Shown in pieces: positions 6,356 to 9,205 of a stretch of DNA of 64,000 bases. The DNA comes from an uncultured Lachnospiraceae bacterium (lineage in GTDB: Bacteria; Bacillota; Clostridia; Lachnospirales; Lachnospiraceae), in the NCBI GenBank assembly GCA_902798585.1, contig CADBXF010000016.1, positions 124,001 through 188,000 of the forward strand. The letters run 5' to 3'. Numbering within the stretch: position 1 is the first letter of the stretch; the number at the start of each line of letters is the position of its first letter. Position numbers and translations under genes: made by a program. Below the pieces are notes generated by a model. It was not told where the DNA came from. It saw only the letters and a program-made list of their open reading frames with translations, and ran no database searches.

Positions 6356-7627
6356 TCACTCGCCGTCAGCCTTCGGAACCATCTCGTAACCGGACCGCAC
6401 CGTCCATGTGTCGTCAGCCTGACTGCGGGAGATCTCGACCATCCGCACCAGATATCCGTTCGCATACTCGAAAAATGTATTGTACTCGTGCAATTCATCG
6501 CCGCGGATTGTCATAACGACCGTATTCAGACGGGAGCCGCTGTAATTCATATCCAAACGGCAGTACGGCGTTGTCATGAAAACATTGTCGGTATAGCGAT
6601 AGGTCAGAACCGTCTCCGGGCGGTCGTCCTCGCCGAAAACCAGAACCCGGTTGCTTCCGTGAAGGATAAACTCATACTCCTTCACGCGCGTTCCGTCCTT
6701 GGCCGTTCCTATTCTACAGCTGTCGTAAGGAATCGCGCCGTCGTAATCTCTCGTAAATTCCTGAAGATACACAAGGTTACCGTCGGCATCATAGCCGCAG
6801 GCCGCCATATTTTCCTCCTCACCGTTCGGATTGATAATCAGCTCCGCGCGGGCAATCGGCGCATAGGTAATCGTCGTGTACAAACGGTCGTCTCTTCCCT
6901 GCTCAAATCGGAATTTTTTCCTGTACGCGTCAATATCCGCCTCGCCGTCCTCGATTTTTGCACGCACCAGTTTTTCGTTGTAAACATCCGCATGAGCGTT
7001 CCAGTAATCCTCGAGAATCGCTTCCGAAAGCGTCTGCCAATCCACGGCCGTCAGCTCTTTCACGCCGACACGCACGCACCCCGCCGGAATCTCATCCGTG
7101 ACTGCTTCTCTCCGAAGATATCCCTGTTTTCCGTTCCGGTACTCCACCACATACCAGTCGTCATCCGAGAACACGCCGTTGCCGTCATTGATCGCGATAA
7201 ATTCTCCCACGGAGATGTCGTCAAGCACACGGGAGCTCTCCATCGGCTCGGTGTAAATGGAGGCATCGCGAATCACATACATGATTCCCTCCAACCGGTA
7301 TGTCTCCCCTTCACCGGGCCCGCTCGTGGGCTCGGCTGTAGGCTCGGGCGTCGGAGAAGGCTCTTCCGTCGGCGTCGGTTCCGGCGTCGGTGTTGCCATC
7401 TCCGAAGGCACAGCGGTAGGCTCCTTCGTCGGTGTCGCCTCCCCGGTCGGTGTTACGGCCTCCGTCGGTGTCGCCGTGTCCGTCGGAACCGGGTTTGTCG
7501 GGGACGGGCTCTTCCCCGCGGAGGAATTCTTTCCCGCATCATTGCCCGATCCTCCGCATGCAGCGAACAATGTCATCATACCCACACAAATCATCAGGAG
7601 AATCCCTCTCCGCACTCTTTTCTTCAT
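6356..7627 (-). CDS. Lipoprotein with Thr-Pro linker and SH3-like domain
   Basis: The 423-residue product has a basic start, a hydrophobic signal segment and a lipobox (LFAAC), so it is probably diacylated at Cys 24 and held at the outer face of the membrane. Residues about 40-105 form a low-complexity linker of TPTP/EPTP repeats. The following stretch (SIYTEPMESSRVLDDISVGE to GKQGYLRREAV) looks like a bacterial SH3 domain, and the rest is a beta-rich domain of unknown function. Its ATG is 18 nt after the reverse-transcriptase stop codon and an AAGGAG site overlaps that gap, so the two genes are probably co-transcribed. No enzymatic motif is seen. Confidence 0.7.
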   Translation of the reverse strand: MKKRVRRGILLMICVGMMTLFAACGGSGNDAGKNSSAGKSPSPTNPVPTDTATPTEAVTPTGEATPTKEPTAVPSEMATPTPEPTPTEEPSPTPEPTAEPTSGPGEGETYRLEGIMYVIRDASIYTEPMESSRVLDDISVGEFIAINDGNGVFSDDDWYVVEYRNGKQGYLRREAVTDEIPAGCVRVGVKELTAVDWQTLSEAILEDYWNAHADVYNEKLVRAKIEDGEADIDAYRKKFRFEQGRDDRLYTTITYAPIARAELIINPNGEEENMAACGYDADGNLVYLQEFTRDYDGAIPYDSCRIGTAKDGTRVKEYEFILHGSNRVLVFGEDDRPETVLTYRYTDNVFMTTPYCRLDMNYSGSRLNTVVMTIRGDELHEYNTFFEYANGYLVRMVEISRSQADDTWTVRSGYEMVPKADGE

Positions 7628-7645: not shown

Positions 7646-8863
7646 TCATCCTACTGTCGGCTCTTCCTCCTCGCGCCCGAGCCAGTACTCGTGCACAAGG
7701 CTTCGAAAGCCGTATTGCTTGATTGTTTCATAGCGAAGCCGGTAGTTCGCCTTGGAATGCCTCCCTGTCGCGATGTACCGGATGCATTCCACCATGTAGC
7801 GGTCCAAAACCGCGAGGCTGTCCGCGGTGGTAATTACCGGGAAAAACCACCTCGCCCAGGTCAGCTCATTCTCCGCGTGATTGTCGTAAAATTTCGCGTT
7901 AAAATGCCGGATGTACGCCCGGATTGCCCGCTCGTCGGTCGCGTGGCTGCGGCTCTTCCAACGATAAAGCTTTCGCGCCCTCCGGCGCATCTTGCCCTTC
8001 AGCTTCCGCACGGAGGCCTCGCTCACATCGAGCACGCCGTCCCGGAAGGTAATCCCCAAAAATGTCCACGGCTCATGCGCCGCAGTCTGCGACACCTTCT
8101 TCGGATTGACCGCAAGCCCCCTGTCGGCGAGCGTCCCCGTGATTTCCGCCCGGTACCGCGCGAGCTCTTCCTCGCTGTCCGCGAACACGATGATATCGTC
8201 GGAGTAGCGCGCATACAGCGCTCCGGCCTCATACATTCTTCGGTCCAGGTCGCTCAGATAGAGGTTCGCCAGGAAGGACGACAGCGGGATTCCGGCCATG
8301 ATGCCCTTCGTCTCCTCGACAAGCGCGCCGTCGCACCACACGCGGGGATTGCGCAGAATCTGCTCTATCAGTCGGCACAAAAGCGGCTCCTCCGAAAGCA
8401 CTTCCCGCACCATCGGAACCATCAAGTCGACATTGACGGAATTGAAATAGTCGTGGATATCCAGTTTGTAAGCGCATTTTGCGGCAAGCCCCGGCCGCCT
8501 TGTCAGATATGCGACCGCCTTCCGCACCCCGCTGTTCACGCGGAACGAAAAAAGATTCGGTGCAAACACGGTGTCGTACCGGTGCAGGTGCCTTGCAATC
8601 GCTTTGAGGATGTGATTTTCCGCGTCGCCGAAGGTGTAGACAACCCGCTTCTTCTCGCTCCCCATCTTGTTGATGATACGCCTCTGCGCGCACGGAAAAT
8701 CGCCGCCCGAAAGCCATCCCGCAAGCGGCTCCCGATACGCTCCGGAATCAATCAGCCGCCGCAGCTTCGCAAGCTCCCGCTTCGTGATATACTCCCGCCC
8801 GGCGCAGTCCTCATAGTATTCCTCCCACGCCCCGGGTTCCGTTAACCGTTCCAGATATTCCAC
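7646..8863 (-). CDS. Orphan reverse transcriptase (retron/group-II-like fold, clade unassigned)
   Basis: This 405-residue protein has the RT finger and palm motifs in order: KKRVVYTFGDAENHILKAI (about 71-89), AYKLDIHDYFNSVNVD with a catalytic Asp (about 131-146), GIMAGIPLSSFLANLYL (187-203), the active-site box YARYSDDIIVFA (YSDD at 220-223) and FLGITF (268-273). A thumb-like C-terminal region of about 130 residues follows. It lacks a maturase/endonuclease domain and the VTG motif of classical retron RTs. A GTG start at 8863 was chosen because GGGAGG lies 8 nt upstream. A promoter and a structured leader of about 300 nt precede it. It could belong to a retron-like, defence-associated or other unknown RT group. 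Confidence 0.85.
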   Translation of the reverse strand: MEYLERLTEPGAWEEYYEDCAGREYITKRELAKLRRLIDSGAYREPLAGWLSGGDFPCAQRRIINKMGSEKKRVVYTFGDAENHILKAIARHLHRYDTVFAPNLFSFRVNSGVRKAVAYLTRRPGLAAKCAYKLDIHDYFNSVNVDLMVPMVREVLSEEPLLCRLIEQILRNPRVWCDGALVEETKGIMAGIPLSSFLANLYLSDLDRRMYEAGALYARYSDDIIVFADSEEELARYRAEITGTLADRGLAVNPKKVSQTAAHEPWTFLGITFRDGVLDVSEASVRKLKGKMRRRARKLYRWKSRSHATDERAIRAYIRHFNAKFYDNHAENELTWARWFFPVITTADSLAVLDRYMVECIRYIATGRHSKANYRLRYETIKQYGFRSLVHEYWLGREEEEPTVG

Positions 8864-8871
8864 GCAAAATC

Positions 8872-9170
8872 CTCCCGGAAAATCGAAGTGTGAGAGGCCC
8901 GCATCGAACGCGGACATCCCACACCGACGGTCCAATCAATCGGGCTCACCGGGGAAGCGACCGCTTCCCGATGAGCGTCCCGTAATTAAGAGAAGAAATC
9001 TTTAAAGTTCGGAAATTTTCCGAACTTACCAGGCGATACACGGCCGACTACCTGCAAAGTACCACAAGGACCGTGCTGCGCCCGCTGCAGGTGCATGGTT
9101 GCATTCTTCCCGAATTACCTTAAAATGCAAGCTTCTCGCGAATCCGGTTGACCTGCGCTTCTCCGATTCC
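8872..9170 (-). ncRNA. Structured leader RNA upstream of the reverse transcriptase
   Basis: About 300 nt separate the predicted start of transcription (near 9170) from the RT start codon, with no open frame but dense pairing. Visible stems are: TTGCATT/AATGCAA (9124-9130 with 9099-9105); GCAGGT/ACCTGC (9151-9156 with 9087-9092); GGGCG and CACGG with CCGTG and CGCCT (9079-9083 and 9071-9075 with 9039-9043 and 9031-9035); and a perfect 11-bp hairpin at 9005-9027. There is also a long hairpin at 8941-8982 whose core is GGGAAGCG/CGCTTCCC, and a two-part hairpin at 8888-8924. GAGAAG (9158-9163) can pair with CTTCTC (8990-8995), closing the 5' part. It is likely the RT's cognate RNA or template, or a cis-regulatory leader. 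Confidence 0.6.
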
Positions 9171-9176
9171 TGTTTC

Positions 9177-9205
9177 ATTATATCGCGGGTAAAAACCATT
9201 TGCAA
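9177..9205 (-). promoter_or_regulatory. Promoter of the reverse-transcriptase leader
   Basis: On the minus strand TTGCAA (9205-9200) and a perfect TATAAT (9182-9177) are separated by exactly 17 bp, directly after the copA stop codon. Transcription would start near 9170 and give the RT gene an independent transcript with a leader of about 307 nt. Confidence 0.7.

Follow-up and report, generated by a model that had tools for sequence, protein, structure and literature searches.

Class 2 reverse transcriptases (RTs) of the UG/Abi group are defined, in the accessible part of the source, by a single RT domain without a fused effector (PMC12489045), and the members studied are described in the available sections of three reports as copying part of a neighbouring non-coding RNA (ncRNA) (PMC13174585, PMC12632851, PMC12483538). 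DRT10, as given in the excerpt available, comprises a UG17 RT, a SLATT protein and an ncRNA of 137 nt encoded upstream of SLATT; its template lies right after hairpin SL5, and RNA positions 110, 116, 117 and 119 are named (PMC12632851). The locus analysed here lies on the minus strand of a 64,000-nt stretch of DNA from an uncultured Lachnospiraceae bacterium (GenBank assembly GCA_902798585.1, contig CADBXF010000016.1, positions 124,001 to 188,000), referred to as the window. It encodes an RT preceded by a structured leader RNA, in which a first-pass annotation had suspected an undescribed RT/ncRNA system. That suspicion did not hold, as the RNA is Rfam family RF03026 (RT-5), the RT belongs to PADLOC family UG26 and the partner protein is catalogued as RTasCOG2852. 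The locus belongs to an RT-RNA family that is already catalogued; the RNA model obtained here goes further than the public one, and the partner has been lost naturally. As a locus its novelty is modest, and what it offers is a complete anatomy open to testing.

Several features of DRT10 in that excerpt recur here. Most UG26 relatives have a three-part operon of RT, ncRNA and small protein, the ncRNA is of similar size (~138 nt by fold), and a single-stranded segment lies just after a hairpin near the RNA 3′ end. The window RT also shares the single RT domain and the cis-encoded ncRNA of Class 2. In other respects the two systems differ: the UG26 partner has a VSR-like fold, not SLATT, and the window has none; the order is partner-RNA-RT, whereas the DRT10 RNA is upstream of SLATT; the A-B-A′ repeat is unsupported in RT-5 RNA and no defence context was found; and the window RT scored 100.5 bits with the UG17 profile compared to 520.2 bits with UG26. 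DRT9 differs as well, since the RT-5 RNA alignment has no long unpaired U tract and contains a covarying pseudoknot, none being mentioned for DRT9 in the available parts of PMC12483538 and PMC12489045. As for the catalogued pair of UG26 and RTasCOG2852, most relatives carry a gene of this type upstream, while the window retains its last 10 codons only.

Identification of the reverse transcriptase

The RT of 405 aa with a YSDD motif was confirmed as a minus-strand open reading frame (ORF), with Y220, D222 and D223 of the motif (residues 220−223) invariant in 63 homologues. Translation probably begins at the GTG at 8861−8863, because a GGAGG lies upstream; a longer reading of 429 aa from the TTG at 8935 is mechanically possible. 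The best PADLOC profile was RT_UG26, matched over positions 2−397 of 398 (residues 26−422 in the 429-aa reading), followed by the general RT model at 109.2 bits, UG27 (104), UG17 and UG4 (99.2). The RT is therefore not unclassified but a member of the already catalogued UG26 family. By profile ranks, Drt3a and Drt2 are closer to UG26 than AbiA or Drt3b are. When the UG17 and UG27 profiles were run over 116 genomes, the best scores were 166.9 and 127 bits, and UG26 RTs themselves give ~100 bits or more with either profile. The only significant Pfam domain was RVT_1, which leaves a single RT domain with no fused effector. An AlphaFold2 model had a mean pLDDT of 92.0, and its residues 2−397 were aligned structurally to a group II RT. 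The RT tree was built from UG26 alone. The RT alignment (A4) holds the window RT and 62 of 79 others.

A conserved RNA with a closing stem and a pseudoknot

The RT-5 model was matched end to end in the window (positions 1−104 of 104). It was the only Rfam family at gathering score across the 64 kb, and the whole genome contained one match. Comparison with related loci (the best 80 of 148 related stretches examined, numbered with the prefix L) extended the RNA on both sides. These loci span Lachnospiraceae, other Clostridia, Bacilli, Bacteroidales and Prevotella, with rumen or gut as a frequent source. The Rfam model covers only the middle of the conserved RNA: the closing stem P1 and the hairpin P1b are missing from it, and the pseudoknot is unmarked. 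In the extended RNA, P2, P3 and P4 are stacked, P1b lies just inside P1, P5 precedes the 3′ strand of P1, and the P4 loop (UUGCAGG) pairs with the strand that follows P1b (CCUGC) (Table 1).

Three RNA alignments were used. A1 holds 49 of 72 anchored sequences, hand-picked, and A2 holds 56 of 58 non-redundant RNAs (71 parsed); A3 was fitted to a model. The ends of A2 were set by best P1 complementarity, so A2 is biased in this respect, whereas A1 is free of that bias, pairing having played no part in the choice of its ends. L103, with a cut upstream slice, and L070 and L107, with long insertions, were left out of A2. In A1, 87.9% of cells pair, and both partners vary in 36 of 46 pairs. The covariation score of A1 was 0.434, which none of 500 shuffles reached (0.212), with sliding controls at or below 0.183; the controls preserve either column make-up or relatedness, not both. 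Scores for A2 and A3 were 0.438 and 0.582. In the P1 core, both-side changes were found in nine of 11 modelled pairs in A1 and 10 of 11 in A3. The share of paired cells in P1 was 79% for A1 and 94.5% for A3, a difference due to alignment register. For P1b, four of five modelled pairs showed double changes, and the longest inverted repeat averaged 4.00 compared to 2.54 in shuffles. The pseudoknot paired in 100% of cells in all three alignments, with double changes at five of six pairs (A3) or four of six (A1). P1, P1b and the pseudoknot covary across both Bacillota and Bacteroidota. A divergent Bacilli RNA (L085:3828−3965) showed a compensatory change in the pseudoknot (ACUUGC/GCAAGU).

A covariance model built from A2 (R1) matched the window RNA with 91.2 bits at 8986−9115. 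The interval 8980−9121 folded better than all 200 shuffles (z = −5.26); the energy model, in which pseudoknots are not representable, pairs the P4 region of the window RNA differently, and the outermost P4 pair is a mismatch in the window. The annotated structured leader of about 300 nt is correct in so far as 8864−9170 folds beyond chance (z = −4.99, 0 of 100 shuffles as good); the conserved RNA itself occupies just ~8982−9119, not 8872−9170. The closing stem proposed earlier, between 9158−9163 and 8990−8995, was replaced, since 8990−8995 sits in the 3′ strand of P1, whose partner strand is 9104−9111.

A closing stem that encloses a structured RNA next to an RT is also what a retron would show, P1 serving as the a1/a2 repeats. 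VTG is a motif of retron RTs. The string is absent from the 405 aa, as first annotated, retron profiles fell far under their cut-offs (St85, 55.5 of 235 bits), RT-5 was the sole Rfam family at gathering score and the UG26 score was high at 520 bits, so that a retron is hardly credible here.

Table 1. Features of the UG26 locus in the window, listed in the direction of transcription.
Feature	Position	Strand	Evidence
Promoter TTGCAA-17-TATAAT, apparently ancestral for the partner-RNA-RT operon	9177..9205	-	Motif match; comparison with relatives
Partner-gene remnant VNRIREKLAF + stop (last ten codons)	9120..9152	-	Translation; match to relatives
Whole conserved ncRNA (extended RT-5), ~138 nt	8982..9119	-	Ends set by fold; R1 model
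P1 closing stem, 5′ strand (core 9104-9111; extension 9113-9118)	9104..9118	-	Core, covariation; extension, energy fold only
P1b hairpin (9100-9102 with 9093-9095)	9093..9102	-	Covarying inverted repeat
Rfam RF03026 RT-5 match	8994..9096	-	82.0 bits; gathering 45.7; E 1.3e-14
Pseudoknot strand ACCUGC, pairs with 9050-9055	9087..9092	-	Covariation
P2, 5′ strand, pairs with 9031-9035	9079..9083	-	97.9% of cells paired; double changes 4/5 pairs
P3, 5′ strand, pairs with 9038-9045	9069..9076	-	96.6% of cells paired; double changes 7/8 pairs
J3/4, variable single-stranded bulge	9062..9068	-	Direct-repeat test negative
P4 hairpin, loop UUGCAGGU	9046..9061	-	Double changes 4/4 modelled pairs
Pseudoknot strand GCAGGU, in P4 loop	9050..9055	-	Covariation
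P5 hairpin	9007..9025	-	Double changes 7/7 modelled pairs
J5/1 UUUAAAGAU, best candidate for the copied template	8998..9006	-	Position right after P5
P1 closing stem, 3′ strand (core 8990-8997; extension 8982-8987)	8982..8997	-	Core, covariation; extension, energy fold
Hairpin between RNA and RT, one subclade	8941..8982	-	Fold; comparison of loci
Second hairpin GUGUGGGA...UCUCACAC before RT start, most members of same subclade	8888..8925	-	Comparison of loci
RT ribosome-binding site GGAGG	8871..8875	-	Sequence reading
RT, UG26 family, 405 aa, GTG start, YSDD	7646..8863	-	PADLOC RT_UG26; AlphaFold2 model; homologue alignment

Co-occurrence of the RNA and the reverse transcriptase

An RT search of 195 related genomes gave hits above 250 bits in 33 genomes, the next score being 69 bits, and RT-5 was found in 33 genomes of the same collection, 32 of them over the cut-off. 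When the lists were compared, the two sets of 33 genomes were identical. Within the genus, 18 of 22 genomes had both RT and RNA, and four (G005, G011, G015 and G017) had neither. In an even draw of 295 genomes across the order, RT and RNA were each found in 15 genomes, of which 14 were shared; the unshared cases were a weak RNA hit of 28 bits (G383) and an RT match of 304 residues (G237). As the RNA travels with the RT in this way, the leader RNA is very likely the partner RNA of the RT, as had been proposed from the sequence of the window. The same strict co-occurrence makes a group II intron relic, or a free-standing RT of the G2L4 type, with the RNA incidental, a very improbable reading; the maturase profile TIGR04416 scored 105 bits against a cut-off of 300, and no intron RNA reached gathering score across the 64-kb window.

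Searching upstream of the related RTs with R1, a check proposed at the outset, located the RNA in 77 of the 80 loci, two of these being cut by contig ends; one of the three loci without a match (L060) has just 83 nt of upstream sequence. Many of the 78 R1 hits are training sequences or near-copies. Hits that are neither include L067, L070, L078, L085 and L094, at 59 to 111 bits. In L079 (2200−2730) and L101 (3550−4020), the region upstream of the RT holds neither RT-5 RNA nor partner gene, and the L079 RT directly follows another gene. Two genomes contained further matches. A second, sub-threshold RT-5 match (35 bits) was seen in G009 (C13:3824−3930), on a contig without an RT hit; this genome also has a full system. 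In G110, RT-5 RNA precedes a fragment of an RT at the end of a contig (C93:4−432), and contig C81 carries a UG26 RT interrupted by one in-frame stop; these are probably one split system or two copies.

In every hit with the RT on the same contig, the RNA was upstream and on the same strand. Such an arrangement is also that of a cis-acting leader, an attenuator or riboswitch-like element that regulates RT expression rather than serving as partner or template. Terminator-like hairpins seen by eye between RNA and RT in L043, L052 and L058, and two extra hairpins before the start codon in one subclade, point the same way. This explanation is nevertheless considered unlikely, though not negligible, because the pseudoknot is fully paired in two phyla, the closed fold of ~130 nt resembles the ribonucleoprotein RNAs of DRT9 and DRT10 in the available part of PMC12632851, and the distance from RNA to RT ranges between about 24 and more than 300 nt.

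The annotated 42-nt hairpin at 8941−8982 does exist. Among L032−L049, a hairpin at its place was found only in L032−L041 and the window, with a different sequence in L032 and L034. The second hairpin, GGUGUGGGA...UUCUCACACUUCG, is strongly conserved in most members of the subclade, where it lies just 5′ of the RT ribosome-binding site, and is decayed or partial in L039 and L040. Both hairpins are absent from L042−L049, where the RT match begins 24 to 51 nt after the RNA.

Loss of the partner gene in the window

The gene order in L032−L038 was acetyltransferase or contig end, CopA, a protein of ~175 aa, RNA, RT, a lipoprotein-like protein and a saccharopine-dehydrogenase-like protein. The window has the same order (acetyltransferase, CopA, RNA, RT, lipoprotein-like protein, dehydrogenase) with the ~175-aa protein missing. 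Across L032−L041, the lipoprotein-like protein was downstream in all 10 loci and the saccharopine-dehydrogenase-like protein in nine, while CopA was absent in L039 and L041 and further away in L040. Nine of 10 tested ~175-aa proteins matched RTasCOG2852 of PADLOC, six at 19 to 31 bits and three at 147 to 188 bits. A partner profile applied to at most 1.6 kb upstream matched in 70 of 81 sequences (the 80 loci and the window). Since three of the misses (L060, L073 and L097) hold 100 nt or less of upstream sequence, 77 related loci were testable, and 70 of these carry the partner upstream of the RNA.

The window keeps VNRIREKLAF and a stop codon, the counterpart of VNRIRENLAF at the end of the L034 partner. 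A search of the window genome with the L034 partner gave no hit, although this search had no positive control. In six of six relatives, a promoter TTGCA(A/T)-17-TATAAT stands upstream of the partner gene (TTGCAA in L032, L033 and L034; TTGCAT in L035, L036 and L038). The promoter annotated in the window is present with 10 of 12 consensus matches, and now lies about 57 nt before the RNA; two promoter-like sites were counted in 7500−9300 compared to a mean of 0.7 in shuffles. From this comparison, it is most simply the old operon promoter, a deletion having removed the gene between. The RT of the window is thus an orphan, as annotated, because the partner gene was deleted to its last ten codons, but this is a derived state and not that of most relatives. 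The deletion was seen in one assembly and is possibly a misassembly.

The partner was also missing from L049, L053, L055, L079, L085, L092 and L101. On the RT tree, the absences, that of the window included, require at least five changes over well-supported branches. RT and RNA persist without it in five of these loci (L049, L053, L055, L085 and L092), which argues against the window locus being a decaying remnant whose RT and RNA drift without function after the partner was lost. The truncated partner would fit such decay, as would the W found in place of Y394, a residue shared by 58 of 63 homologues. Yet the RT ORF is intact, with a single departure from positions that at least 59 of the 62 remaining homologues share, a count that ranges from 0 to 4 in those homologues, the RNA still scores 91.2 bits with R1 and the operon promoter is retained; decay is accordingly thought distinctly unlikely.

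The partner has a VSR-like fold without the conserved nuclease residues. No Pfam family was above cut-off in 10 partner proteins, and a profile search against solved structures returned only weak matches, to unrelated proteins (best E 0.0028). The partner alignment (A5) holds 59 of 62 proteins. The VSR-like domain is preceded in the protein (e.g. L034:3214−3741) by an initial helix of amphipathic appearance and a linker rich in Pro and Ala, and this N-terminal part may possibly make a membrane or oligomer contact.

Proposed mechanism and tests of the candidate template

By analogy with the studied Class 2 systems, the UG26 RT and RT-5 RNA probably assemble into a Class 2-type ribonucleoprotein in which a short piece of that RNA is copied into DNA, a reading held with slightly better than even confidence. 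The RNA would fold around the RT through the pseudoknot, and the RT would copy the single-stranded J5/1 and halt at P5. J5/1 is the template candidate because the DRT10 template occupies the corresponding place, right after SL5. A hydroxyl residue close to the C-terminus (Y378 or S388) might serve as the primer, and in relatives the DNA product could be bound or sensed by the VSR-fold partner. The window locus no longer has the partner, while its RT and RNA are apparently still under constraint.

J5/1 reads ATCTTTAAA in the window and is conserved in most rows as UU(U/C)AA followed by variable bases. Template resetting of the DRT10 kind would call for a direct repeat, the telomerase-like A-B-A′ arrangement. 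In a first repeat test on 47 distinct RNAs, the direct repeats of J5/1 averaged 2.98; shuffles averaged 2.69 and reached the observed value in 6 of 300 cases, and chimeras averaged 2.83 and did so in 1 of 300. Without its flanks, J5/1 had fewer direct repeats than shuffles (1.80 compared to 2.07). Single cases of direct repeats, 7 nt in L085 (GAUUCUC-AAAUC-GAUUCUC around J5/1) and 6 nt in L055, are suggestive only. An A-B-A′ template in the 5′ segment (AUGCA-ACC-AUGCA in the window) was rejected, as the repeats across relatives are inverted, not direct (GCAAC/GUUGC, GCGGC/GCCGC, GCAGC/GCUGC); direct repeats there averaged 2.67 compared to 2.27 shuffled, an excess that may be due to palindromic GC.

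Several results weigh against the proposed copying mechanism. A stricter, anchored test of J5/1 on 53 distinct RNAs gave 3.13 compared to 2.995, with 244 of 2000 as high, and within-lineage chimeras averaged 3.20, with 1627 of 2000 doing as well. J3/4 also failed as an A-B-A′ template (2.66 compared to 2.69 shuffled, P4 side included). The RTs of L079 and L101 have no RNA alongside, even with search filters off. The priming residue is a guess: S388 occurs in 56 of 63 homologues, and Y394, found in 58 of them, is replaced by W in the window. Foldseek with the partner gave no match below E 0.001, and PADLOC at E 1e-10 gave no match among 10 neighbour proteins from six loci. Because the DRT10-type repeat tests were negative or without clear excess, a single-pass or other copying mode is equally possible. 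A bolder version, in which UG26/RT-5 would be a chromosomally settled, telomerase-like particle and not a mobile defence gene, copying J5/1 of its pseudoknotted RNA repeatedly into short-repeat DNA read by a catalytically dead VSR-fold protein, which the window species would have dropped with RT and template RNA still working, is regarded as a long shot.

Neighbourhood and mobility

In five Bacteroidota loci, the neighbours of UG26 above cut-off were GlmS, NAD(P)H-hydrate repair, a T9SS sorting domain and Omp85; below cut-off were a glycosyltransferase, LpxH, LutB, a peptidase and a transporter, and one of 10 proteins matched nothing. Directly downstream of the window RT, at 6356−7627 on the minus strand, the lipoprotein-like protein contains long PTP/EPT repeats and is syntenic in relatives; no Pfam family was found in it at E 1e-5.

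A viral collection gave nothing with the window RT as query and one 25%-identical stretch with the alignment. The phage collection gave 15 records, the best of those listed being 26.7% identical over 63%, and the plasmid collection gave 956, of which the 10 listed were all 29.6% identical over 70%, nine being annotated ltrA. Related UG26 RTs are at least 36% identical over nearly the whole length, so a close UG26 copy should have topped these lists, although more distant ones may exist. UG26 RTs are reported from cold-seep viruses in the available part of PMC10504277. These neighbourhood and collection negatives neither show nor exclude a defence role for UG26. No functional study of UG26, and no paper on RF03026 or on COG2852 with reverse transcriptase, was found in the open literature searched, where most subscription papers are missing.

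Significance

The studied Class 2 RTs (DRT2, DRT3a, DRT9 and DRT10) each use a small RNA to make DNA by an unusual route, and UG26 appears to be of this kind. Joining the RT-5 RNA and its fuller fold with the RT and the VSR-fold partner as one operon provides a defined, testable construct, in which the RNA boundaries are concrete and candidates are named for the template and the priming residues. The partner deletion in the window, together with the seven other partner-less loci, five of which keep the RNA, shows which parts of the system evolution can spare.
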